From a virus, in the IMG/VR virus record IMGVR_UViG_3300009103_000115, positions 1-30,559 of that record: a stretch of 30,559 nt of DNA. One strand, given 5' to 3'. The position numbers and the translations under genes were made by a program. Under the pieces are notes generated by a model. The model ran no database searches. It was not told the origin of the DNA and was given only the letters and a program-made list of their open reading frames with translations. Positions within the stretch are counted from its first letter, which is position 1, and each line of letters starts with the position of its first letter. Positions 6,193 through 27,967 of the stretch are shown piece by piece.

Positions 6193-7521
6193 TTAACAGT
6201 TTGTTTTTCTGTTGTTTTTAAATCTATCAGTGAAAAGCAAATTCACTTTAACCCCTCTTGTTAAAGTTTGGTACTCGCTTCCTTCGTTATCTTGCAATTC
6301 TACAGGTAATAACTCAAAATTATAACTATGGTTATTTTTGTTATAATCGCTTACAAAAAGTTCATTTCCTTTTAAAACAAAATCCATTAACTCATCAGCT
6401 ACACAAACAGGTAAATTCAACCCTTGAAACTTATATTCTTTATTAATAGAAATACTTATTTGCCTATTCTTATAATCTCTAGTGGATAAATTATTTTGTT
6501 CGTAACTCCTTTCTGCTCTTCCAAAAAATCCATTAACTCTTAATGATGTTTTATAACCGCTACCTTTGAAATCAACCTCTTTGTCGACAAAAAAACCATC
6601 TTGTGTACAATCTATTCTTACTGTATGATTGGCTTTGTCAATGCTAAAAGCCTGCAAAGTAAATGTATTAGTGTAGTAGTCCTGAGGGATTCCCACAAAA
6701 TTAACCTCCTGTTTTATTTGGTAACTACCCTCTCCAAGAAGAGCCAAAACATTTTTCCACTCCAAGATATAAAAACTTAAATCTGGCTGTGCCCCTCCGA
6801 AATCTTGAAAAGTTCCGTATGTGTTGTCGTTCAATAGGTATTCTGTAGCATTTGCAGTGTCCACTAGTTTAAAAACTACACTGCTATTGTTTGTAGGTCT
6901 TTTAAAGTAAACGCCCGTAAAATCGTTCTTATAAGGGCTAGAGTCGGTTAAATCTCCAAAAACCTTGGATATATAGCCGCATTTTTTAAAGCCTCTATCT
7001 GGAGGAATTGGTAATGGTGGTGTAACTTTTACTGCATAACTTAAAGTTCTTTCGCCAGTTGGACAAATTTCATCATTCCTATTTATCAAGCATTCCTTAC
7101 ACCCTGCATACTCTGTATATGATGTAAGTAACCTTGTTGCTGGTGCGCTAGGTCCTATCTGGAACCAACAATCACAACTGCCATCAATCCTTAGTACATT
7201 ATTAGTTGGTGTAGCTGTTGGAAATCCAAACACTTCTCTTTTACCAGTCTCACAATTCTCATACTCATATTCTGCAAAAATAGGAGTACAAGCATTTGCA
7301 CTACTGACAACTAAATCAGGCACATAATCGGTAAAAACACAAACATTATCACCTAAAAAATCCAATTCATATACTCGATTAACATTAACAGGGTTGCCTT
7401 GGAAAAATTCGTTGACAAAAACAAATTTTCCGGCCATAGGGTGTAATGTATTCCAACCTAAACAATCAATGTCTGGGTAATTACTTGGGTTGCATGATAT
7501 AAGTCTATAATTAAATGCCAT
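6193..7521 (-). CDS. Cysteine-rich distal tail protein, 442 aa
   Basis: A long beta-rich protein with well over a dozen cysteines, mostly in the N-terminal half (for example CDCWF, CKECL, EICPT) and singly afterwards. So many cysteines are unusual for a phage structural protein and suggest metal clusters or disulfides formed outside the cell. Its start codon shares one base with the stop of the 1173-residue gene (TAATG), implying coupling. Position suggests a tail-tip or baseplate-like component next to the receptor-binding protein. No family recognised; no signal peptide. Confidence 0.7.
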   Translation of the reverse strand: MAFNYRLISCNPSNYPDIDCLGWNTLHPMAGKFVFVNEFFQGNPVNVNRVYELDFLGDNVCVFTDYVPDLVVSSANACTPIFAEYEYENCETGKREVFGFPTATPTNNVLRIDGSCDCWFQIGPSAPATRLLTSYTEYAGCKECLINRNDEICPTGERTLSYAVKVTPPLPIPPDRGFKKCGYISKVFGDLTDSSPYKNDFTGVYFKRPTNNSSVVFKLVDTANATEYLLNDNTYGTFQDFGGAQPDLSFYILEWKNVLALLGEGSYQIKQEVNFVGIPQDYYTNTFTLQAFSIDKANHTVRIDCTQDGFFVDKEVDFKGSGYKTSLRVNGFFGRAERSYEQNNLSTRDYKNRQISISINKEYKFQGLNLPVCVADELMDFVLKGNELFVSDYNKNNHSYNFELLPVELQDNEGSEYQTLTRGVKVNLLFTDRFKNNRKTNC

Positions 7522-10500
7522 TATGGTACGTAAGTTTGTATTATCTTAGAGAACATGTTGCTTGTCAAGTCCATTCTCCATAGTAGTGAAGTAATTGGAC
7601 TAGAAGAAACTATCACCCGTCTAAAATAGAAGTAATTCCCTACTACACAGCCTACCCCCATAGAGGAACCGCCAGAAACAGGCATATTTACAGTATTTAC
7701 AAGAGAAAATGTTGAATCAAAAATAAATACCTTTGATGAATCCATGACATAAAGCATGTTATTGTAGGTAAAAATATTTCTTATTTGAGTCAAAGAACCC
7801 CCTGATATAATTAATGTCTTAATTGTACTTATAGGGTCATAAGCGTAAATATAGGAAACATCGGGAACATCCCTGAAACCGTATATAACTTTATTTTGGA
7901 AGTAAACCAAAGGTGCTTCCACTTCGCTACTATCTGGATTTAAATCAACCGTTAACGGATTCAATGTAGTGCCCACAATTTCACTTAAGACCCCTAAAGT
8001 ATATTCAAACACACCAGAACCAGTATCTATAAAGTTATTCCATCCTGAATTGTCACTTAAGAAACTTGGTCCTATTAATGTGATTGAATTAGTAGATATC
8101 TCATATTTGAATACACCACCAAAATTATTATTTCTCCCTAGTCTAGGACTACCATAAATAAATCCATTACTATAATATAAAGGATTCGATATTGTATTAA
8201 AATTTGGGCTAGTCGCAATTTGCGAGAACCTATAACCTGTGGTTGTAGATAAACTTATTAGTTTCGTAAAAGTATTGTCGTTTATTGCTATCGAATAAAA
8301 ATAACCCAAATTATTATCCCCACCCTCATCAGTACAACCAAAGAGTTTTCCTTCAGCATATAAAAGACCAACTCTATTGCTATGTTCAAAATTATAGATA
8401 ACTTTTGATGTATAGGTTGGATCAGATAAATTCATCTTCCAAATATAACCCAGTCCATTATCTCCTCCTAATCTGCTAGTGCCATAAATGAAACCGTCAA
8501 ACTCTACAACACTACTCTGTTGCTGTCCTCCTATTTCGAAGGCATCTCTACAGCCTGAACGCCCTGTTATTTTGTAAGCTGTTGCATTTAGTAACTTGTT
8601 GGGGTTTATTAAGCATGATGTTTTAATTACAGTAGGGGAAACTAACACTACATTTAGTAGCGAATCACCATTTAAAGGCTCTAGAGGGTTGTCTGGCTCT
8701 GGTAGCCAAATATTAGAAAGTTGCCTAAACTCAGACTGTCCTGCACCCTCTCTAACCTCTATCGTGGTTGTAAAATAAACGCTATTCAAATTCGCCCATG
8801 TTCCCGTCAATCTATTGTATTCAATCTCTACCCTTACTGGTTCATTGCTTAATATAACACCCAAAGGTAATCCGCTTTCAGCATCAGTACCTCCAGATAT
8901 TATAGATTGGTCTGATTCTCTTTTATAGGTTACCGTAGTTGTAATATTATCGTTATCATTATAATCTTTGAATAACAATTCCTTTTTATTTTCATACCTA
9001 ACAGGATTTGAATCTAGTTCAGCATTAGTAAATACATAAAAATACATTCTCCAACCCGAATTAAGCAAATAAGCGTACCAGTCATTACTAAGACCATTAT
9101 TTTTTAATGTGTTATCGTAAAAATTATTATTAACCTGAAATGGCACGTTAAACCTACTTATCCAATCCTCCCACCTAACTTTGAACCCATAAAAACCAAG
9201 AACCCCCTTACTAGAGCCTGAATCTATACTTGGGTAATATTTTGCTGAAATAACATTTTTTGAATTATTCGGAGGTAGCAATCCATACTTAAATCCCCTT
9301 GATGCTTCAAAGTTATACTGGCTTACATCTGGGTACTGTGTTAAATCAATTGGATATTTATCTAAAAAGTATTGAAAACCATCAGAACTCCTTTCTATTA
9401 AAATGCCATACTCTATACCTGTTATTACTGGAATATCAACAGACACATTAGTGTTAACTAAAAATTCTATTCTTGCTGATATGTCGTCTTCTATTCTAAT
9501 GTCATTACCGCAAATGCTTGGAGAATCGCTCAAATCTTGTGGATGGGTTAAGAAACCTATTTGCATGCCTTCATATTCTCCAAGAGGCTCTATAAATGTG
9601 TCCATTTGGTTAAAATCAACACGTTTGCAAACTCTGTTCGATTTATTAGTAAGTAAATTTTGGTCGCCGACATTGACCCATATTATATAATTCCTATCAT
9701 CTAAATCACGCTTCTCCATGAAAGCAGTAAACGCAGGATTAGGTGTGAAATCGCATTCAAATGTTATTTCTTGTGGTCCAGTTTGTTGAAATCTTATGTT
9801 CTGAGTGTCCATACTCGCTCCATCATTACTAAAACCCTGCCTGTATGATCCATCAATGATATTTGATACATTGAAAACGTCTGATAAGTAACCACCACCA
9901 GTATTTATTTTTGTGTTTTCATGAAACGGTGTTTCTAGTTCTTTGTAATCAGCCTCAATAGTTGGGACCCATTGGAAACCGTAAGTGCATTTTGTTTGAC
10001 CACTAATATTTGCTATACCGTCAATAATTACTTTACATGAAGTAGTATTTTTGTAATCCAGTTGCGATATAATTGTACCATTAGAGTTTTTATACTCTAT
10101 CGATTTAATTGTAAAATCATCTACACCACCATTGTAGTTTTCATCAAACCAACCTGTAACCCCTAATTGCTTTGTTAGTTTTAAATCGTTAGATATTGAT
10201 ATATTGGGGTTGTTAAAAGTTGGATAAGCTTTTATTATAAAGTTATCGGTCAAGCACTCTTTATCTAATGTTTGCGGTGGGCTTTCGTTCGCTGAAAAAG
10301 TGTTTATGTCCTCAAAGAATGAGCTAATCATAAACACCATGTCAATCCTGTATGTGTATGTAGTGTACGTATAAGGAGGGCTACCGCCAGAAGATACACC
10401 AAGATAAGTTAAATCGCAACTTTCAATACTCATGCCACTTTGAAGGCCTTGCGCTTCTATTGGTATTGTCTGCCCCAAGGACATCAAGCTAACATCTCTT

Positions 10501-11042
10501 GCCCTAAAAAATGTATCAGTACCATCAATGAAGCTTCTTAAATTCAAACTATCTGAATCACTATTTCTTAAATGTCCTGGCTGGAAAAATAATTCATCAG
10601 GTATTTTGTCTGTAGCAATAAATACACTATGTATTTTGTCATCTGCAAGCTGAACTGGGTAGATGTTTGATACTTGAGCACCACCACCTAAAGTGCCGTT
10701 GCTTGAAATCATTTGGCTCCCATTAATACTAACGACTGTACCCGTTACCACATAAACAGAGCTAATACCAGAAGGTATGTTTAAAACAGTCCATTGAACG
10801 GTAAAATTATCGCCAACTCCAAAACCTTGTTCCTGCCAAAAACTACCATCAGTTAAGGTGAAAATATTTGGCTCCTCCATGAATAAAGTATTGGATAGGC
10901 TAAAATTAATATCTGCAGATATTTGTGCCAAAAAAGACAATTTTTGCCATACACCAACATTCCCCAATAACAAACTTATGTTTTGGTCTTGTGGTCGCTC
11001 TATGTGCGTGTATATTCTTTCTTTTATCTTTATTCCCATCAC
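7521..11042 (-). CDS. Large tail-tip protein with C-terminal GloVer-type beta-propeller repeats, 1173 aa
   Basis: The largest gene in the window. The N-terminal ~840 residues are beta-rich and hydrophilic with scattered cysteines and many Asn/Gly turns, as in tail-tip proteins. From about residue 840 to the end there are roughly six repeats of ~40-60 residues: 'GFIYGTSRLGGDNGLGYIW', then 'GKLFGCTDEGGDNNLGYFY', then 'GFIYGSPRLGRNNNFGGVF', followed by three more diverged copies (near 1043, 1087 and 1126) with the pattern N-x-hydrophobic-Y-aromatic. The first three match the Gloeo/Verruco (GloVer, TIGR03803) repeat consensus I know: G-x-L-Y-G-T-T-x-x-G-G-x-x-G-x-G-T-V-F. Such repeats fold as beta-propeller blades. 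A host-receptor or glycan-binding role is inferred. Repeat family fairly sure, function open. Confidence 0.8.
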   Translation of the reverse strand: MMGIKIKERIYTHIERPQDQNISLLLGNVGVWQKLSFLAQISADINFSLSNTLFMEEPNIFTLTDGSFWQEQGFGVGDNFTVQWTVLNIPSGISSVYVVTGTVVSINGSQMISSNGTLGGGAQVSNIYPVQLADDKIHSVFIATDKIPDELFFQPGHLRNSDSDSLNLRSFIDGTDTFFRARDVSLMSLGQTIPIEAQGLQSGMSIESCDLTYLGVSSGGSPPYTYTTYTYRIDMVFMISSFFEDINTFSANESPPQTLDKECLTDNFIIKAYPTFNNPNISISNDLKLTKQLGVTGWFDENYNGGVDDFTIKSIEYKNSNGTIISQLDYKNTTSCKVIIDGIANISGQTKCTYGFQWVPTIEADYKELETPFHENTKINTGGGYLSDVFNVSNIIDGSYRQGFSNDGASMDTQNIRFQQTGPQEITFECDFTPNPAFTAFMEKRDLDDRNYIIWVNVGDQNLLTNKSNRVCKRVDFNQMDTFIEPLGEYEGMQIGFLTHPQDLSDSPSICGNDIRIEDDISARIEFLVNTNVSVDIPVITGIEYGILIERSSDGFQYFLDKYPIDLTQYPDVSQYNFEASRGFKYGLLPPNNSKNVISAKYYPSIDSGSSKGVLGFYGFKVRWEDWISRFNVPFQVNNNFYDNTLKNNGLSNDWYAYLLNSGWRMYFYVFTNAELDSNPVRYENKKELLFKDYNDNDNITTTVTYKRESDQSIISGGTDAESGLPLGVILSNEPVRVEIEYNRLTGTWANLNSVYFTTTIEVREGAGQSEFRQLSNIWLPEPDNPLEPLNGDSLLNVVLVSPTVIKTSCLINPNKLLNATAYKITGRSGCRDAFEIGGQQQSSVVEFDGFIYGTSRLGGDNGLGYIWKMNLSDPTYTSKVIYNFEHSNRVGLLYAEGKLFGCTDEGGDNNLGYFYSIAINDNTFTKLISLSTTTGYRFSQIATSPNFNTISNPLYYSNGFIYGSPRLGRNNNFGGVFKYEISTNSITLIGPSFLSDNSGWNNFIDTGSGVFEYTLGVLSEIVGTTLNPLTVDLNPDSSEVEAPLVYFQNKVIYGFRDVPDVSYIYAYDPISTIKTLIISGGSLTQIRNIFTYNNMLYVMDSSKVFIFDSTFSLVNTVNMPVSGGSSMGVGCVVGNYFYFRRVIVSSSPITSLLWRMDLTSNMFSKIIQTYVP

Positions 11043-11303: not shown

Positions 11304-13100
11304 TTACAAGAAGTTTATAACAAAATTTTTATCATAAATCCTGTTGACTCTATAACTTATAGTTGCCTCATTCTCCCAAACATTCCATACTAACTTGGAT
11401 ACTTCTGCAGGCTCTCCACTTTGGGTTTCAACTAGATTATTTGCTTCTAAAGATACGAAATCTTTGTAACAAAAAGGTATTTTTTGTTCTTCAAAAATCC
11501 AATATTGGTTGTGAATGCCATTTGTGGGTACAAAGCTATTAATAAAGTGATAATTTTCGTATAAATTTTTTGCACTTAATATTTCCCTTTGGTTCTTAGT
11601 CAGCTTTTGACCAGACATAACAACAATCTTTCCAGTATTTGTATAATCACTCGATAAATGCAGAACTCCAATTCTATTATTGATTTTACCACTAAGCCCC
11701 TTAGGATTGCCTAGCTGCCCTGTTACAGCATCTGCTAGAGTAGCAAAAACTTTCACTACTTCCTCTATAACTGTTAATTTATCCTTCCTAGACGGCAAAG
11801 AAAAAGGTATAGCCACCTTTTCAAGACCAGTTAAATTTGTTAATTCTGGATTCTCTGTATTCAATGCGGTAATTTGCGCCTGAAAGCTCAAACCGTCTAC
11901 ATTTTCTAAAGTATTTTGATCCTGTGGGTCAATATTCCAATAGATATTATAATTAGCCCTAAACTCATCAACATTAAAACCGTTGAAATCAATAAACTTT
12001 TCTTGGTCTGTGAAAGTGTTAGGAATCACATAAGGGCTTTGTGTTCTGAATTTATCCTTTCTTTCAAAGAAAAGTATTCCGTCTGACAATTTAAAATCAG
12101 CATTAAACATCTTTTTTAATTCCCTAATTAAACCGCCAGGCGTATCTATAACGCTGTTTACTTCAGGAACTCCTGTTTGTGTGCTTTGAGATGCCACAAA
12201 AGCTCCCTTTTCTTGTTTTTTGGGTGGCATATAGCACCACCTAGCACTGGTCTTATCAAGTTCATCCAACAAAGAACTTTGAAGCGTCAATCCTCTGTAA
12301 TCACAGAATCTTTGCAATAGTGTTTTTATGGGAATGCCTCTGTGAAACCTCTTCAATGGCATTAGCTCATCAATGATTTGCTCTACTAGCTTTACTAAAG
12401 CGAAAACAATTGCCGCTAAATATGCAATTTGAGCAACTAGCTTTAATGCTGCCATTATTATATTACCAATATCATAAGCAGTAACCACACCACCGCCCAA
12501 ACCAGCACTTACACCAACAACTGGTGTAGCTGCGTCAGTCAAATCTGCTATTCTTCCAGCTAAAGATTTTATATTTTCAATTAGCTCTTTTACTAAGGAA
12601 TAAGTAGATAAAGCAAGTATTAAAAGCTGCATTCCATCAGGAATAAAATTTATAACATAAGGTATGTCTACAAAATCAGATGTTTTAATAATTCCTATAC
12701 TTTGTAGGTATCTGAAGCTATCAGCATCGGCAACATCATTTAACCAGTCTGAACCTTGCCTAGTTTGCAAAGAAACGCTAATACCACAGGTATCAAAAAA
12801 AGATGGATTCTTTGTGAAATCAATATATAAATCAAAGTTCTTGTAATCACTAAAAGAACCAATTTGTATATTGTATGGCATGCCCTCAAAAACACCTACT
12901 CCACCACTTTTCCCACTCAAAAAACGATCCCTAATTAAAGTGCCGTCTTTACCGTTAAAATCCAATGAGCTAACATTAATCATTGCCTGCGCCTTCCTGT
13001 CTAACCAATCCATTTCTATCTCTATCAATGGAGGCTTATTTGGTTGACTATTTACAGGATTTACCAAATTGCCATCTGCATAATGCCTTATATCTGTCAT
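11304..13100 (-). CDS. Distal tail/baseplate-hub-like protein with internal hydrophobic region, 598 aa
   Basis: Overlaps the tape-measure gene by four bases (ATGA), the position where siphophages encode Dit/Tal or hub proteins. The N-terminal ~145 residues are beta-rich and contain IEMDWLDRKAQ. Residues about 150-255 are strikingly hydrophobic, with IPDGMQLLILALSTYSLV and a Gly/Ala-rich stretch followed by YLAAIVFALVKLV, enough for two or three membrane-type helices. The C-terminal 330 residues are mixed alpha/beta with aromatic-rich strands. I recognise a similar arrangement in Bacteroidota siphophage tail proteins but cannot give a family name. The hydrophobic core may insert into the host membrane during DNA entry (inference). 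Confidence 0.75.
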   Translation of the reverse strand: MTDIRHYADGNLVNPVNSQPNKPPLIEIEMDWLDRKAQAMINVSSLDFNGKDGTLIRDRFLSGKSGGVGVFEGMPYNIQIGSFSDYKNFDLYIDFTKNPSFFDTCGISVSLQTRQGSDWLNDVADADSFRYLQSIGIIKTSDFVDIPYVINFIPDGMQLLILALSTYSLVKELIENIKSLAGRIADLTDAATPVVGVSAGLGGGVVTAYDIGNIIMAALKLVAQIAYLAAIVFALVKLVEQIIDELMPLKRFHRGIPIKTLLQRFCDYRGLTLQSSLLDELDKTSARWCYMPPKKQEKGAFVASQSTQTGVPEVNSVIDTPGGLIRELKKMFNADFKLSDGILFFERKDKFRTQSPYVIPNTFTDQEKFIDFNGFNVDEFRANYNIYWNIDPQDQNTLENVDGLSFQAQITALNTENPELTNLTGLEKVAIPFSLPSRKDKLTVIEEVVKVFATLADAVTGQLGNPKGLSGKINNRIGVLHLSSDYTNTGKIVVMSGQKLTKNQREILSAKNLYENYHFINSFVPTNGIHNQYWIFEEQKIPFCYKDFVSLEANNLVETQSGEPAEVSKLVWNVWENEATISYRVNRIYDKNFVINFL

Positions 13101-16015
13101 AAACGTTTCTTTATTTTCTCGGTCTTAGTCATGCGTGAAGCAACTGTTTTTCTGGTCACCTCTACGACATCCCCAATGATAGATGTAATTGTTTCCTGAA
13201 CAACTGGTTTCTTTTCAATGGCTTTTCTGGTTTCTCGCAATTCGGTCAACAAACCATCAAGATTAACAATATTACTGTCGCTATGATTGTTCGCACTTAC
13301 TTCTTTAGTTTGTTGGTTGTAATGTGCAGCACCTAAAGTCATGTAATTAGGTTTTAAGTCTGATATAGATGCTCCTAGAAGAGCATTCTTAACTAAAGTT
13401 TCATTGCTCATTGATCCTAGTTGTTTATTTTGTTTTGCTGTAACAACCCGTTCATTGTTATGCAGTATCGCTAATCTTCCTCCTTTTGAATCCATGGGGT
13501 TACTCACTGTTCCGGTGTCCTCTGTACCATCATAAAAACTTCCTATAGCTGCCAAAAGCCCTTTCAACACACCAAATTGTTGTAAACCAGTTTGAACAGC
13601 GTTTGGATCACCATTCTGAGCCGCTGCAACGGTTAGATTGATTAAGGCTAAAGCCTCTGCTGCTTGTTTAGCTCGTTTCTCTGCCTGTTGCCTTTGTAAC
13701 TCCTTTTGTGCTAGTTGTTCTTGCTCAAACTTTAAATTGTTTTCCAAGCCTGCTTGTGCTCTCGATTCTGCTCGTTCTACAGCGGTGACCTGAGCGCTTA
13801 CAGCATCCTCTGCAGCCTTAACCTCTGAATCAAAAACACCTTGAATGGCCTTGGAGGTTTCCTTAGTTATGTTTATAATATCTTTCGATAGTTTCTCTTG
13901 CTGTTCCTTTCTATTTTTTAACCTGTCCGCCCTTTGTTTGGATAAAGCTTCTTCTTCTTCTTGAATTGCTTTCTGTTGCCCCTTTAGACCGTCTACAGTA
14001 GCCTTATTTAGCTTATCTTGGTCTTTTTTTATTAAAGCCTTGGCAGTATCAACAGATTTTTTTGCCTGCTTTTCTCGCTTTAGGTTAAAATCTGCTATAA
14101 TATCAAGTTTTCTTTGTTCTGAGGCTTTTAGTTGTGCTTCACTAAGCTGCTGACTTAATGATTCAATTTGTAATAACTCTTTGCCTATCTTTTCTCTAAA
14201 CTCAATAACCTGTTTAGAGTTCTCACCGTAAAACTCAATTAAAGCCTTTTCTTGTTCCTCCGCTAGTTTGATAAATGAATCTAAATTATCCTGTCTTAGC
14301 TTTTGTTCCTCTTTAAACCTTAAATCCTCCAGTTCTAAAGCTCTATCCAAGCGATCCTCTATACTGCCAATTTCTAATTCTGACAATTCTCTTTGTAGCT
14401 GTTCAATGGCTTTTAGCCTTTCAGAATAATTATCCTTTAAAGCCTTGGTATTGTCTTTGTTTTTTGATGTATTAATATCAAGGTTTCTTTCATAGGTTTT
14501 TAAATCCCCTTGTAAGGCTTGAATTGAAGCATTAGTATCTCCAATTGCTTTGTTGTATAAGAATGTTTCTTTTATCAGATTCTTAAATGGTCCTATTACG
14601 TTTTCACCATCCCTTTGTAAATTAACTAAGGTAGATGCTAAGTCGCCCAAACCATTCTCTGCACCATTTAATATTCTTGTTAAGTCCGCTATAGTGCCAA
14701 AATTACCAGACAATATATCAGCAAAAGCATTAGAAGCAATCGCGTTTTTGCTTAATTCCTCAGCAAAGTTTTGAAAATCAGAAACAGTAAAGCCAAGAGC
14801 CGTTCCTGTGTTTTCTGCGCTTGATTTTATGGCATTGAATGCATCATTTAGGGCAGTAGCCTTGTTTGTAAATATATCAGTCTGGGTTGCTTGCTGTGCT
14901 CTTAGCAAGAACGTCTTACTTATAGCCTCATTAACCAAGTCTTGAGCCACTGCTATTTCCTCTTGTAGTGATTTTTCAGTCAATAGATTAGGGAGATATT
15001 GACCATATTGCTTATTTATCTGGTCAACAAGTTCTTTTCTTTCTTTGCTGCCTTCGTTAGTGTTGCTAAGAGATGTAAAGAGTTGGTCTACATTTGCCTT
15101 CTCTTTTATCATTTCTTTGTTTAAGTCATTTATTGTACTCTCTAGTCCTGCACTCGTAGCTGAGAACTCATCAGCACCTTTATTGATGTCAACAAAAAGA
15201 CCTACAAAGCTCCTAATTGCATCAGACACAAAAGTTATAGCCGGGGCGAGAACCTTTAATAATTCTACAGAAATCTTAGTCAAAGCATTAGATGTTTCAC
15301 CTAAAGAACTGTCTAACTCTTCAAGTGATTGGCTGCCTTTTTTATTTTCATCTATTAGGGACTTTACGCCCGTGACCACTTTTCTGAAGAAATCTACAGC
15401 CGTTCTACCAATAAATACTCTAGCCGTTGTTTTACCAAGCTTAGACAACGAATCAGTATAATTTCCTACATTCCTTCTAGTATCACCAGTAGCCTTTTCT
15501 AAAGCCTTTAGTCTCTTGGTAAGCTCTAGTTTTTGCCTAGAAAGTTGCTTACCTCTTTTCCCGTTCTTAGCCTCTTCTTCTGTCAGTTTCGCCCATTCCG
15601 CACTAGCCAAAGATAATTGAGCGCGTAGACTTTTTATTGTGTTGCCTTGCTCATTCTGGATAATAGCCAATTGTTTGGCTCTTGCCACTCTCTCTCGTTG
15701 TACTTGTCTTTCTTTTTGTGCTTGTATTAATTCCTCGTTGGTTAATTGCTTACGCTTTTTTTGAGCAATTAAAAGAGCCTCTTTTTTAATCCGTAGCTTT
15801 TCTTCAGCCAACTCTAATTTCCTTAAAGCGATTGCTTGTTTTTCAATTTGGGCGGTATCGTTTACATTGATAAACTTTAGACCTTCGTTAAATTCTTTGG
15901 CTAATTTCCTAAGCCTAGATTCTAACGAATCAAGATTTGAAAACAAATCATCAAAAACATCTGTTGGTGCTATAATATTATTATAACTAATTATTGCTTT
16001 TTCTTCGTCAGCCAT
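13097..16015 (-). CDS. Tail tape measure protein, 972 aa
   Basis: Long, mostly coiled-coil protein: K/E/Q/L-rich helices at about residues 20-200 and 510-760, a hydrophobic helix region near 245-275, and a compact C-terminal domain from about 830 with FYDGTEDTG followed by DSKGGRLAILHNNERVVTA. That C-terminal signature is one I know from Bacteroidota phage tape measures. It scaffolds tail-tube assembly and sets tail length. With the usual rule of about 1.5 angstrom per residue, the tail would be roughly 145 nm. The gene overlaps the upstream chaperone ORF by 8 bases and the downstream hub gene by 4. No lysozyme or peptidase motif was seen in it. Confidence 0.9.
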   Translation of the reverse strand: MADEEKAIISYNNIIAPTDVFDDLFSNLDSLESRLRKLAKEFNEGLKFINVNDTAQIEKQAIALRKLELAEEKLRIKKEALLIAQKKRKQLTNEELIQAQKERQVQRERVARAKQLAIIQNEQGNTIKSLRAQLSLASAEWAKLTEEEAKNGKRGKQLSRQKLELTKRLKALEKATGDTRRNVGNYTDSLSKLGKTTARVFIGRTAVDFFRKVVTGVKSLIDENKKGSQSLEELDSSLGETSNALTKISVELLKVLAPAITFVSDAIRSFVGLFVDINKGADEFSATSAGLESTINDLNKEMIKEKANVDQLFTSLSNTNEGSKERKELVDQINKQYGQYLPNLLTEKSLQEEIAVAQDLVNEAISKTFLLRAQQATQTDIFTNKATALNDAFNAIKSSAENTGTALGFTVSDFQNFAEELSKNAIASNAFADILSGNFGTIADLTRILNGAENGLGDLASTLVNLQRDGENVIGPFKNLIKETFLYNKAIGDTNASIQALQGDLKTYERNLDINTSKNKDNTKALKDNYSERLKAIEQLQRELSELEIGSIEDRLDRALELEDLRFKEEQKLRQDNLDSFIKLAEEQEKALIEFYGENSKQVIEFREKIGKELLQIESLSQQLSEAQLKASEQRKLDIIADFNLKREKQAKKSVDTAKALIKKDQDKLNKATVDGLKGQQKAIQEEEEALSKQRADRLKNRKEQQEKLSKDIINITKETSKAIQGVFDSEVKAAEDAVSAQVTAVERAESRAQAGLENNLKFEQEQLAQKELQRQQAEKRAKQAAEALALINLTVAAAQNGDPNAVQTGLQQFGVLKGLLAAIGSFYDGTEDTGTVSNPMDSKGGRLAILHNNERVVTAKQNKQLGSMSNETLVKNALLGASISDLKPNYMTLGAAHYNQQTKEVSANNHSDSNIVNLDGLLTELRETRKAIEKKPVVQETITSIIGDVVEVTRKTVASRMTKTEKIKKRL

Positions 16016-16286
16016 TCTTTTTGTTTTTGACTTTAATCCAGTTTTTTAAATGGTAGAAATTCATTATAGACAAATCCCTTACATTTTTATTTGTGTGTTC
16101 CTCCATAGAGAGTAACATTAAACCTTGGGCATTTTCATTTTCAACAATAGCGTTATTACTTACATAAACATTCCAATAACTAGGTCGGCTAATCCTTAGC
16201 AATTCCAAAGTAGATTCCTTTACAACCTCTTTTGCCTTTTCCTTGTCAATCAAAGCCAAAGAACGAGCCTCCAAATTTGCTAACAT
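16008..16286 (-). CDS. Tail assembly chaperone, T-like part, reached by -1 frameshift from the upstream ORF
   Basis: 92 residues from an ATG at 16286, but the same frame is open well upstream, through the end of the preceding 149-residue ORF. In that ORF a -1 shift lands in exactly this frame. A shift at the TTTTTTA site adds 14 residues (KETFYGTNLSYNTA) before the Met at 16286, giving a fusion of about 247 residues. Position immediately before the tape measure and the two-frame layout match the lambda G/GT arrangement. The product is helical and charged with a basic C terminus (KNWIKVKNKKNG). Independent initiation at 16286 cannot be excluded. Confidence 0.72.
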   Translation of the reverse strand: MLANLEARSLALIDKEKAKEVVKESTLELLRISRPSYWNVYVSNNAIVENENAQGLMLLSMEEHTNKNVRDLSIMNFYHLKNWIKVKNKKNG

Positions 16287-16300
16287 GGCAGTATTATAAC

Positions 16301-16750
16301 TTAGATTCGTGCCATAGAAAGTTTCTTTAAAAAAGATTTGAAGCTCATTAAAGATTTTTTTTTTACGCGCTCTGTTTCTCTCTTCATTTCGTCAAATGAA
16401 ACACCAAATTCATTTAGTTTTTGTATGGTTCTAGTTAGTCCCTCTTCGCTTATATCATCACAAGGTACTCCATCAATGCTCTTCACTTGCACAGCATACG
16501 CCATTGATGTCGGAGAAAATTCATTTTTGATCAAAGCAAGTACCATTAGCATATTAGAAAGCTCCTTGAATGCGCTTTCGTTGTCATTAGCAAGAATGTA
16601 ACCGTTTGCCCTTTTAACTCTTGTTGTCATGTCCTCCCAATTATCGCCCGTTTCCGCAGCCATAGCCATATAGTTATTAAACTTCAGGTATCTTAAAATT
16701 GGCGCGGTTTCAATATCATCATAAATAACCACTTTATTATTACTCATCAT
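16301..16750 (-). CDS. Tail assembly chaperone, G-like part (149 aa)
   Basis: The first of the two overlapping chaperone frames, just ahead of the tape measure. It is soluble and mostly helical. The last 21 residues (VKKKSLMSFKSFLKKLSMAR...) are basic and are encoded by the two candidate slippery runs. In siphophages such proteins exist in excess with a minor frameshifted form that binds the tape measure. The first two codons are both Met. The start overlaps the preceding membrane-protein gene by 11 bases. Chaperone identity rests on position and frameshift layout, not on sequence similarity I can recall. Confidence 0.7.
   Translation of the reverse strand: MMSNNKVVIYDDIETAPILRYLKFNNYMAMAAETGDNWEDMTTRVKRANGYILANDNESAFKELSNMLMVLALIKNEFSPTSMAYAVQVKSIDGVPCDDISEEGLTRTIQKLNEFGVSFDEMKRETERVKKKSLMSFKSFLKKLSMARI
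16328..16364 (-). promoter_or_regulatory. Candidate programmed -1 frameshift region (two slippery runs)
   Basis: Reading the - strand in the chaperone frame, codon 129 starts GTA AAA AAA AAA TCT, giving A10 (16355-16364) and an A AAA AAA heptamer in phase. Eleven codons later TCT TTT TTA gives T TTT TTA (16328-16334), the classic X XXY YYZ heptamer, also in phase. The zero frame stops at TAA 16301-16303. The -1 frame has no stop from before the A-run through position 16008. Either site, or both, could serve. I did not identify a downstream stimulatory hairpin or pseudoknot. Confidence 0.72.
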
Positions 16751-17051
16751 TACTTATAATACGCTTTATAATATTATTAAATCCTGCTGCACTGTACCCT
16801 AAAATAATCAACCTAAAATCCTGCATCCAACACACAAAAGGCAAACACATAAAAAAAGCCAAATGAGACTCCATGCACAATTCACAATCTACTAAATCAC
16901 TCAAAAAATCCCCTAGACGTTTATGCTTTATACGTCTAACATAGGTTTTTATTGGACAATCGCATTGGTCTAAAGATGTAATCTTATAGATAACTTGGGT
17001 AAGCCACCAAAAAAAGAAATAAAAAACTACTAAATTTACCATATTAATCAC
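16740..17051 (-). CDS. Small membrane protein with CxxC motif in the tail module, 103 aa
   Basis: Residues about 4-24 are strongly hydrophobic (VNLVVFYFFFWWLTQVIY). A basic central loop (YVRRIKHKRLGDF) follows, then DCELCMESHLAF with a CxxC pair and a second hydrophobic stretch (about 62-90). The order, short TM, basic loop, C-x-x-C directly before a second TM, resembles DUF1360-like small membrane proteins, though I am not sure of the family. It overlaps the upstream tail gene by 8 bases and the downstream chaperone by 11, so it is expressed with the tail genes. Role unknown. Confidence 0.65.
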   Translation of the reverse strand: MINMVNLVVFYFFFWWLTQVIYKITSLDQCDCPIKTYVRRIKHKRLGDFLSDLVDCELCMESHLAFFMCLPFVCWMQDFRLIILGYSAAGFNNIIKRIISNDE

Positions 17052-24336: not shown

Positions 24337-25059
24337 CTATAGGTTCACGTTTTTAACCACTACTGTTTGAATGACACCAAGTGAATCTCTAAAGCCTACT
24401 TGAAAGTCATATTGACCAACACCTATTGGGTCTGCAAAAAATGATTCCCATAAAAAACTAAAAGTTCTTTTACCATTAATGCAACCTAAATCATTAAGCG
24501 TAAACGCCACCGTATTGGGATTTGGTCCAGCTATAACGTTAATAGAAACCGCAACATCAGTAAGGTCACAAGTAAAAGAGTTGTTTAATTCAACTCTTAC
24601 CTCGTACTCAAAAGTTATACTACCCACTCTTGGGTTCATTATTAAATCAAAATCGGTTGTCAGAGAAGGATAATTAACACCTCCACAGCAATTAAAAGAC
24701 GGTGGCGGATCAAGATACTCTCTAATAACGTTTAAAATTGTAATCTCTCCAGGAGTTAAGGCAGTTTGGTCTAAATCAAGTCCGTACAATCTAGAAAGAT
24801 ACTGATTAAAACCTGAATCACTAAAAGGCTGTATTTGCCCCGTCTCTAATTGTGCTCTAATATCTGAAATTTCAACAGGTACTGGCAGTGCGGTTATATT
24901 CTGCAAAGAACTAAGCAACAAACAAGACTCACTGTCTATTCCTGTAGCAAAAGCACTAGGTTTTAGTTTGTACATTAAACTGCATTTATACTCTAATTTA
25001 GAGCAACTTTGAAATAATGTTATTAATACAAATATAGTAAAAAAAAAGTATTTATTCAT
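24337..25059 (-). CDS. Lipoprotein encoded within the head module, 240 aa
   Basis: The N terminus MNKYFFFTIFVLITLFQSC is a clear lipoprotein signal: two positive/polar residues, an 11-residue hydrophobic core, then a lipobox-like LFQSC with Cys19 as the acylated residue, followed by SKLEYKC. The mature part has helical residues 55-115 with a Pro-rich stretch (LDPPPSFNCCGG) and a beta-rich C-terminal half. It should be anchored in a host membrane, probably the outer membrane, rather than in the virion. It lies between large terminase and the structural gene at 23595. Possible roles: superinfection exclusion, envelope change or a recently inserted moron gene. No family recognised. Confidence 0.75.
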   Translation of the reverse strand: MNKYFFFTIFVLITLFQSCSKLEYKCSLMYKLKPSAFATGIDSESCLLLSSLQNITALPVPVEISDIRAQLETGQIQPFSDSGFNQYLSRLYGLDLDQTALTPGEITILNVIREYLDPPPSFNCCGGVNYPSLTTDFDLIMNPRVGSITFEYEVRVELNNSFTCDLTDVAVSINVIAGPNPNTVAFTLNDLGCINGKRTFSFLWESFFADPIGVGQYDFQVGFRDSLGVIQTVVVKNVNL

Positions 25060-27318: not shown

Positions 27319-27699
27319 TTATTCAAATATCTCTTTTTCTAGATCAATCTTTCGATGCATTAAAGTTATCAGCTTTGTGATTTGCTCCATGTTCTCACCT
27401 TCATACTTTAGGTCAAACAAGTAGTCAAATGTCACTGTTTCCATGGTCAACCATTTGTTTATGACATCAACATACTCAGCCGCAGTGGGAAACACTGCGG
27501 CTGTAGCAAGGTAATGCATAAGTTCAATATTGTTGCACTTACTCAGATCTTTTATAAAAATCGAACGCTCTTCTTTTTTTATCTTAGCGTTCTTTAGCTT
27601 CTGCTTTGCTTTTTTATAAAGGATTCTGAAATCACTATCCCTTTTATATTCGGCAAAGCGCAGCTTATTCAATTTTTTTTTGATTAGTTTGGTTATCAT
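27319..27699 (-). CDS. Hypothetical protein, 126 aa
   Basis: The first 60 residues are Lys-rich and helical (IKKKLNKLRFAEYKRD; KAKQKLKNAKIKKEER), the rest is a more hydrophobic helical domain containing an ATAAVFPTAAEYVDVINKW stretch. No signal peptide. It overlaps the lipoprotein gene upstream by 35 bases. The basic half could bind nucleic acid. No family recognised. The overlap resembles an Rz/Rz1 pair only superficially, because this protein has no N-terminal membrane anchor. Confidence 0.58.
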   Translation of the reverse strand: MITKLIKKKLNKLRFAEYKRDSDFRILYKKAKQKLKNAKIKKEERSIFIKDLSKCNNIELMHYLATAAVFPTAAEYVDVINKWLTMETVTFDYLFDLKYEGENMEQITKLITLMHRKIDLEKEIFE

Positions 27700-27967
27700 G
27701 TTTTTTTATTTCTTTCCAAGCTTGCTTTAAGCAGAACTCAACTCCATAAAGAGAATGGAAATGGCTACGTTCAAAAAATTTGCCTTTCATATTAGTAAGG
27801 CTAATTCTCCTTGATATTAAGCTATCTTGGTAAGCTCTCATACGCCAAAACAACAGCGTATCTATTTTTGGAACTTTTTGAAGTTCTGTTATTTCGGTTT
27901 TAACATTATGTTGATTACATGACATTAAAGATAGCAAAAAAATAATACTTAAAAAAATCTTTCTCAT
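27665..27967 (-). CDS. Small lipoprotein, 100 aa
   Basis: MRKIFLSIIFLLSLMSC is a textbook lipoprotein signal: basic n-region, long hydrophobic core, LMSC lipobox with Cys17. The mature part (83 residues) is charged and helical (LLFWRMRAYQDSLISRRIS). It should be exported and lipid-anchored in the envelope. As a second phage-encoded lipoprotein outside the tail operon, it may be a superinfection-exclusion or envelope factor. A spanin is less likely: there is no paired inner-membrane partner and no C-terminal transmembrane helix. Confidence 0.7.
   Translation of the reverse strand: MRKIFLSIIFLLSLMSCNQHNVKTEITELQKVPKIDTLLFWRMRAYQDSLISRRISLTNMKGKFFERSHFHSLYGVEFCLKQAWKEIKKHDNQTNQKKIE

Follow-up and report, generated by a model that had tools for sequence, protein, structure and literature searches.

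How does a phage obtain a full-length product from a gene whose reading frame is interrupted midway? The question is raised by a locus at 16750–16008 on the minus strand of a 30,559-nucleotide stretch of DNA from an uncultured virus, a phage of Bacteroidota (IMG/VR record IMGVR_UViG_3300009103_000115; the whole stretch is referred to as the window), at which a putative tail assembly chaperone gene appears to go out of phase by a single base within a run of ten adenines (A10). Our analyses of this gene and of its relatives suggest that transcriptional slippage at the A10 run is the likely means by which a short and a long form are both made.

One Gene in Two Frames

All features of the window described here lie on its minus strand. 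The first open reading frame, ORF1 (16301..16750; stop 16303–16301), has 149 codons and would encode the N-terminal domain up to the A-run, that is, the short, G-like form of the chaperone. ORF2, as called mechanically, has 92 codons (16008..16286), is offset by -1 relative to ORF1, and has its ATG inside the C-terminal domain. The -1 frame itself is open further upstream (16008..16391), with no stop codon between a point just below 16394 and 16010, and from 16358 it would encode the C-terminal, T-like domain of the long form. The A10 run (16355..16364; GTA AAA AAA AAA TCT), the candidate slippage site and the homology junction, holds A AAA AAA in phase twice (16364–16358 and 16361–16355), and a T TTT TTA heptamer (16328..16334) is in phase as well; the fusion has 247 residues whether the shift is placed at A AAA AAA or at T TTT TTA. 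A first-pass annotation of this DNA had reported the -1 offset of the two ORFs, the open -1 frame, both in-phase heptamers and a fusion of about 247 residues, all of which, coordinates included, were borne out.

By themselves, in-phase heptamers are weak marks, as chance alone produces them: the other genes of the window's module have some 10 further in-phase copies of AAAAAAA or TTTTTTA, and about two runs of at least 10 A/T are expected by chance per window. Two features do go beyond chance, namely that homology continues across the junction and that relatives have conserved the A-run. ORF1 matched the profile of the family phrog_8914 at positions 7–139 of 250 (E 5e-30), and the -1 frame from 16358 matched positions 136–249 of the same 250 (E 1.3e-7). 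ORF1 was matched in 74 phage records and tblastn identified 76, from phages of Bacteroides, Parabacteroides, Flavobacterium, Croceibacter, Elizabethkingia and Alistipes; in most of the latter 76 the gene is one ORF of ~250 codons. In addition, the -1 frame matched a protein of Flavobacterium phage 1/32 over 97% of the length of the frame. Judged by these matches, each frame supplies one half of a single two-domain family of ~250 residues that is encoded directly upstream of the tape measure, and the earlier proposal that the two form one G/GT-like product at that place is supported both by the phrog_8914 matches and by the relatives in which the gene is continuous.

The same evidence bears on whether there are instead two separate proteins, with ORF2 translated from its own ATG at 16286, 15 bases past the stop of ORF1 (16301 to 16286). 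Because the homology of the -1 frame reaches upstream past this ATG, unbroken, to the A-run, the ATG is probably not a real start. The first-pass annotation had also doubted that the ORF at 16286 is an independent protein, and the match of both frames to one family, together with the single ORF of most relatives, agrees with it; among the relatives there was no case of a second ORF starting independently with no open -1 frame upstream. We regard two separate proteins as extremely improbable.

Site of the Frame Switch

Of the two slippery motifs, the first-pass annotation had preferred T TTT TTA, which is a canonical heptamer and in phase. Nine codons separate the A10 run from the end of this T6A heptamer, and the residues they encode differ between the two placements. 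When tested on a homologue profile, the nine residues of the -1 frame (IFNELQIFF) scored +15.4 bits and those of the 0 frame (SLMSFKSFL) -4.2 bits, and only 0.02% of permuted -1 nine-mers matched or exceeded the score of the former; the profile was built on 117 sequences that included the window's own fusion, which slightly helped its score. As only the -1 reading of the disputed residues agrees with the family profile, the sequence comparison places the frame switch at the A10 run (16364–16355), with VKKK|IFNELQIFFK as the predicted junction in the long form. The preference for T TTT TTA (16334–16328) was thus not upheld: the -1 frame is already homologous between A10 and T6A, and other genes of the module contain heptamers of this kind by chance. 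A shift there is highly implausible, and we judge the heptamer to be a bystander, a coincidence of two phenylalanine codons.

Conservation of the Run in the Family

Loci gathered from phage records, IMG/VR and GTDB genomes gave, after removal of duplicates, 108 full-length homologues, in 95 of which the two halves are fused, whereas 10 are split by -1 and three by +1. An A-run stands at the same place in all 108 distinct genes, with A9–A12 in 107 and A8 in one. The purity of the run is pronounced at synonymous sites, since all 285 of the run lysine codons in the 95 unsplit genes are AAA and none AAG, vs. 1073 AAA and 936 AAG (53% AAA) outside the run in the same genes. The same was found for 68 representatives of <80% nucleotide identity, with AAA:AAG counts of 204:0 in the run and 751:680 elsewhere. 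Selection of the loci does not explain this purity, because the scan that supplied most of them relied on peptide patterns from the N-terminal part, at a distance from the run, and those patterns that included the run were peptide patterns back-translated to degenerate DNA.

Only four columns were invariant in an alignment of 42 fused proteins, one glycine and three lysines. In a confident predicted model of a fused relative (predicted local distance difference test score, pLDDT, 94; predicted template modelling score, pTM, 0.87) the run lysines lie in a long helix located between the N- and C-terminal halves. In 68% of unsplit genes, vs. 8% of control positions, both alternative frames reach a stop no more than four codons past the run, an excess that partly follows from the amino acids that come next.

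Changes of Phase

On a tree of 84 representatives there were at least nine changes among the fused, -1 and +1 states, in both directions. The flavobacterial clade to which the tree assigns the window (support 98) contains fused, -1 and +1 members; the window's branch is long and its exact placement uncertain. Three related contigs from different metagenomes (L024, L026 and L029) have a -1 split in common, with an A9 run, and we attribute this shared split to inheritance and not to error.

Some of the single split cases may be sequencing errors, namely that of Bacteroides phage BF8P1 (L012) and those of the metagenome-assembled L115–L117. In BF8P1 (1486–2239) the run is A11, vs. A10 in a 99% identical relative, and two ORFs are annotated in +1 phase; this A11 is either a natural variant or a sequencing error.

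The same concern applies to the window, as a homopolymer error in the assembled contig would mean that the true genome has A11 and one continuous ORF, like its relatives. A single A separates the window from an unsplit gene, and the window is one uncultured virus record for which we found no close relative: there were no DNA-level relatives in the phage collection, no plasmid relatives were found, and a scan with the window's own lineage gave a best identity of ~32%. A scan of viral contigs with ORF1 as a single protein gave no relative, whereas alignment-based scans did find relatives. Against an error stand the shared split of the three A9 loci and the corresponding split in the complete genome of a named phage, Flavobacterium phage 1/32, and the family-level result is independent of the window. 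We therefore consider an assembly error improbable.

RNA Structure Around the Run

In the Bacteroidales-type clade, a hairpin abuts the 5' side of the run. Stems of at least 6 base pairs with a spacer of 0–3 nucleotides to the run were present in 81% of the clade vs. 12% at other places of the same genes, and, without correction for relatedness, the hairpin was stronger than in shuffles of synonymous codons (mean z -2.0, Wilcoxon p ~1e-12). The hairpin also covaries (72% paired; covariation score 0.285 vs. 0.197, 0/500 shuffles), with 20–40% paired in slid registers. These assessments combined fixed-register counts with register-free tests. The flavobacterial clade had no excess of abutting stems (12% vs. 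13%) and only a weak energy signal 5' of the run (mean z -0.84), and the window gave neither. Bacteroides phage B124-14 exemplifies an unsplit gene with the hairpin, and Flavobacterium phage tant8-1 one with A11. Among unsplit genes, hairpins were found in 52/61 with A10 and 0/6 with A11, and those with A9 were also without one, which, with relatedness not corrected for, gives a hint of a trade-off of the hairpin against run length.

Downstream of the run there was no excess of RNA structure that might act as a ribosomal stimulator (mean z +0.46 in unsplit and -0.47 in -1 split genes, and +0.26 in the window; pseudoknots were not modelled). A search of Rfam gave no match.

Transcriptional or Ribosomal Slippage

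The first-pass annotation had proposed a ribosomal -1 frameshift. That the frames are joined at a slippery run stands; the ribosomal nature of the join is doubtful, as the features of the family fit slippage by RNA polymerase better. By analogy with described systems, a pure run of at least nine A of a length matching the RNA–DNA hybrid, a 5' hairpin, no 3' structure and a free phase are features of transcriptional slippage. The family has a homopolymer of at least nine A kept pure at synonymous sites and its phase changes between relatives, so that the anatomy of phrog_8914 would fit a programmed transcriptional-slippage site better than a classical -1 ribosomal site. From these features we infer that slippage occurs and that it is transcriptional.

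As we envisage it, an unslipped messenger RNA (mRNA) of the window gene would give the 149-residue, G-like short form. Stuttering of RNA polymerase on the A10 run would add one A (or any number equal to +1 modulo 3), and ordinary translation of the slipped mRNA would give the long form of ~247 residues (GT-like, ...ERVKKKIFNELQIFFKETFYG...). Like gpG and gpGT, the two products would then have the tape-measure protein encoded next to them as their target. In relatives with the run in the other phase, the unslipped mRNA would give the long form and the slipped mRNA the short one, and the genomic phase would be of little importance provided that the run remains slippery.

Several observations weigh against this proposal. 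The window itself has no hairpin abutting its run, although such a nascent-RNA hairpin is a stimulator that is not always needed. RNAalifold returned no consensus structure for the hairpin alignment, probably because the register of the hairpin differs between genes. Of the 13 split genes, 10 are split in the -1 direction, a shift that simple ribosomal slippage by -1 on A AAA AAA would equally provide. With regard to the product, a fold search returned nothing significant from the PDB; in the viral library it gave a small number of family-like entries, and beyond the family no known tail chaperone was matched significantly.

Because the window's lineage is without the hairpin, ribosomal -1 slippage might operate in the window. 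In a classical programmed -1 ribosomal frameshift on A AAA AAA in the A10 run, both forms would come from one uniform mRNA, and the in-phase X XXY YYZ heptamer, present twice, the need of most split relatives for -1, and the annotation of Flavobacterium phage 1/32 with a joined chaperone coding sequence (CDS) at the same place are all consistent with it. It leaves unexplained the pure A-run and the 5' hairpin of unsplit genes as well as the three +1 splits, and it would have to do without a downstream stem-loop or pseudoknot, as the modelled structures gave no stimulator in the window or in the family. Shine-Dalgarno pairing is little used by Bacteroidota. Overall, we consider a ribosomal frameshift unlikely here, though not to the degree of an assembly error.

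Comparison of transcriptional slippage at this locus with known systems points to parallels on several sides. In Thermus thermophilus dnaX, whose transcriptional slippage takes place on a pure run of 9 bases, both of the other frames contain stops (PMC5009743). The points of resemblance are the pure run, the two length forms, as proposed for the phages, and the stops in both alternative frames past the run, as in the unsplit phage genes; dnaX differs in being a cellular polymerase gene for which no phase switching is described there. The tssM gene of Citrobacter rodentium and Yersinia pseudotuberculosis has A11, an orthologue with reversed phase, and 15–25% slippage that was abolished by AAG substitutions (PMC4256274). 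It has in common with the phage genes a poly-A run, short and long forms as proposed for the phages, and opposite genomic phases between orthologues, but it is a type VI secretion gene compared in two species and not across a phage family. Slippage in a Roseiflexus IS630 transposase is stimulated by a 5' adjacent nascent hairpin (PMC5009743), comparable to the hairpin directly 5' of the slip motif in the Bacteroidales-type clade; unlike the phage genes, its motif is T5C5 and slippage is by deletion only, and the window itself has no such hairpin. Stem-loop structures have also been reported in relatives of the insertion sequence IS1447, which undergoes slippage on an A-run (PMC6211511).

The closest annotated parallel, Flavobacterium phage 1/32 (F132_37/F132_38, KJ018210), is homologous, has an A10 run and a -1 split, and is recorded as two chaperones with one joined CDS; it is only ~32% identical, and its record table states no mechanism. 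Like the lambda-like G/GT system with its -1 programmed ribosomal frameshift (PMC5009743), the window would have a short and an extended form just before the tape measure, and its split frame is in -1 phase. Unlike that system, phrog_8914 has most of its relatives unsplit, keeps a pure A9–A12 run, has a 5' hairpin in one clade and has no downstream stimulator, and it was not matched to G/GT by sequence profiles or fold search.

Proposed Role of the Two Forms

Since the fold search gave no solved relative and no known chaperone, the role of the product is assigned from position and architecture. The gene stands directly upstream of the tape measure, its two frames overlap and are joined at a slippery site that relatives conserve, and "tail assembly chaperone" is the existing annotation of several phrog_8914 relatives; from gene order, two-form architecture and annotation we infer a chaperone role. 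Pfam tail-chaperone families gave no match, and neither sequence nor fold relates the product to known gpG/gpGT.

The tape-measure gene (13097..16015; phrog_167, tail length tape measure protein, E 1e-4) lies directly downstream, and it comes next after the chaperone gene in most annotated relatives. Directly upstream is a small DUF1360-like gene (16740..17051; PF07098 at 20.8 bits, cut-off 21), a neighbor also present in Bacteroides phage C1_85S2P. The window's virus record encodes a terminase, a portal, a tail protein and a tape measure. In the virion proteome of phage B124-14, only ORFs 38, 39 and 42 were detected in virions (PMC3338817).

The PHROGs label of phrog_8914 is "head and packaging / virion structural protein", which the position of the gene does not support: members of the family lie before the tape measure, and several records name tail assembly chaperones.

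Wider Implications

In long-tailed phages, the balance between G and GT is a textbook example of frameshifting by ribosomes. Our results incline us, a little less firmly than for the window gene, towards a family of Bacteroidota phages in which both chaperone forms arise by slippage on A9–A12, with a hairpin boost in one large clade, and in which the gene drifts among unsplit, -1 and +1 states because slippage would supply both forms whatever the genomic phase. If this is so, the translational G/GT switch has a transcriptional counterpart; no description of transcriptional slippage making tail chaperones was found in the literature searched, which left most subscription journals outside. Unsplit chaperone genes annotated as having no frameshift would then yield two products as well, and the puzzle of chaperone genes in which no frameshift is visible would become open to testing. 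In addition, the family would provide a large natural series for studying the dependence of polymerase slippage in Bacteroidota on the strength of the hairpin and the length of the run.

Additional Observations

Three other loci of the window, all on the minus strand, were recorded in passing. The ORFs at 27665–27967 and 27319–27699 overlap and have a 9-base A-run in the overlap (27681–27673), which could be a second slippage or overlap site. The tail-region protein of 1173 residues at 7521–11042 is covered by phrog_12056 over residues 4–832 only, and motifs of the type GLLYAEGKLFGCTDEGGDNNLGYFYS recur in its last third, suggestive of a distinct repeat domain. Between head genes, a lipoprotein-like ORF at 24337–25059 (MNKYFFFTIFVLITLFQSC) has a 9-base T-run on the coding strand in its signal peptide.

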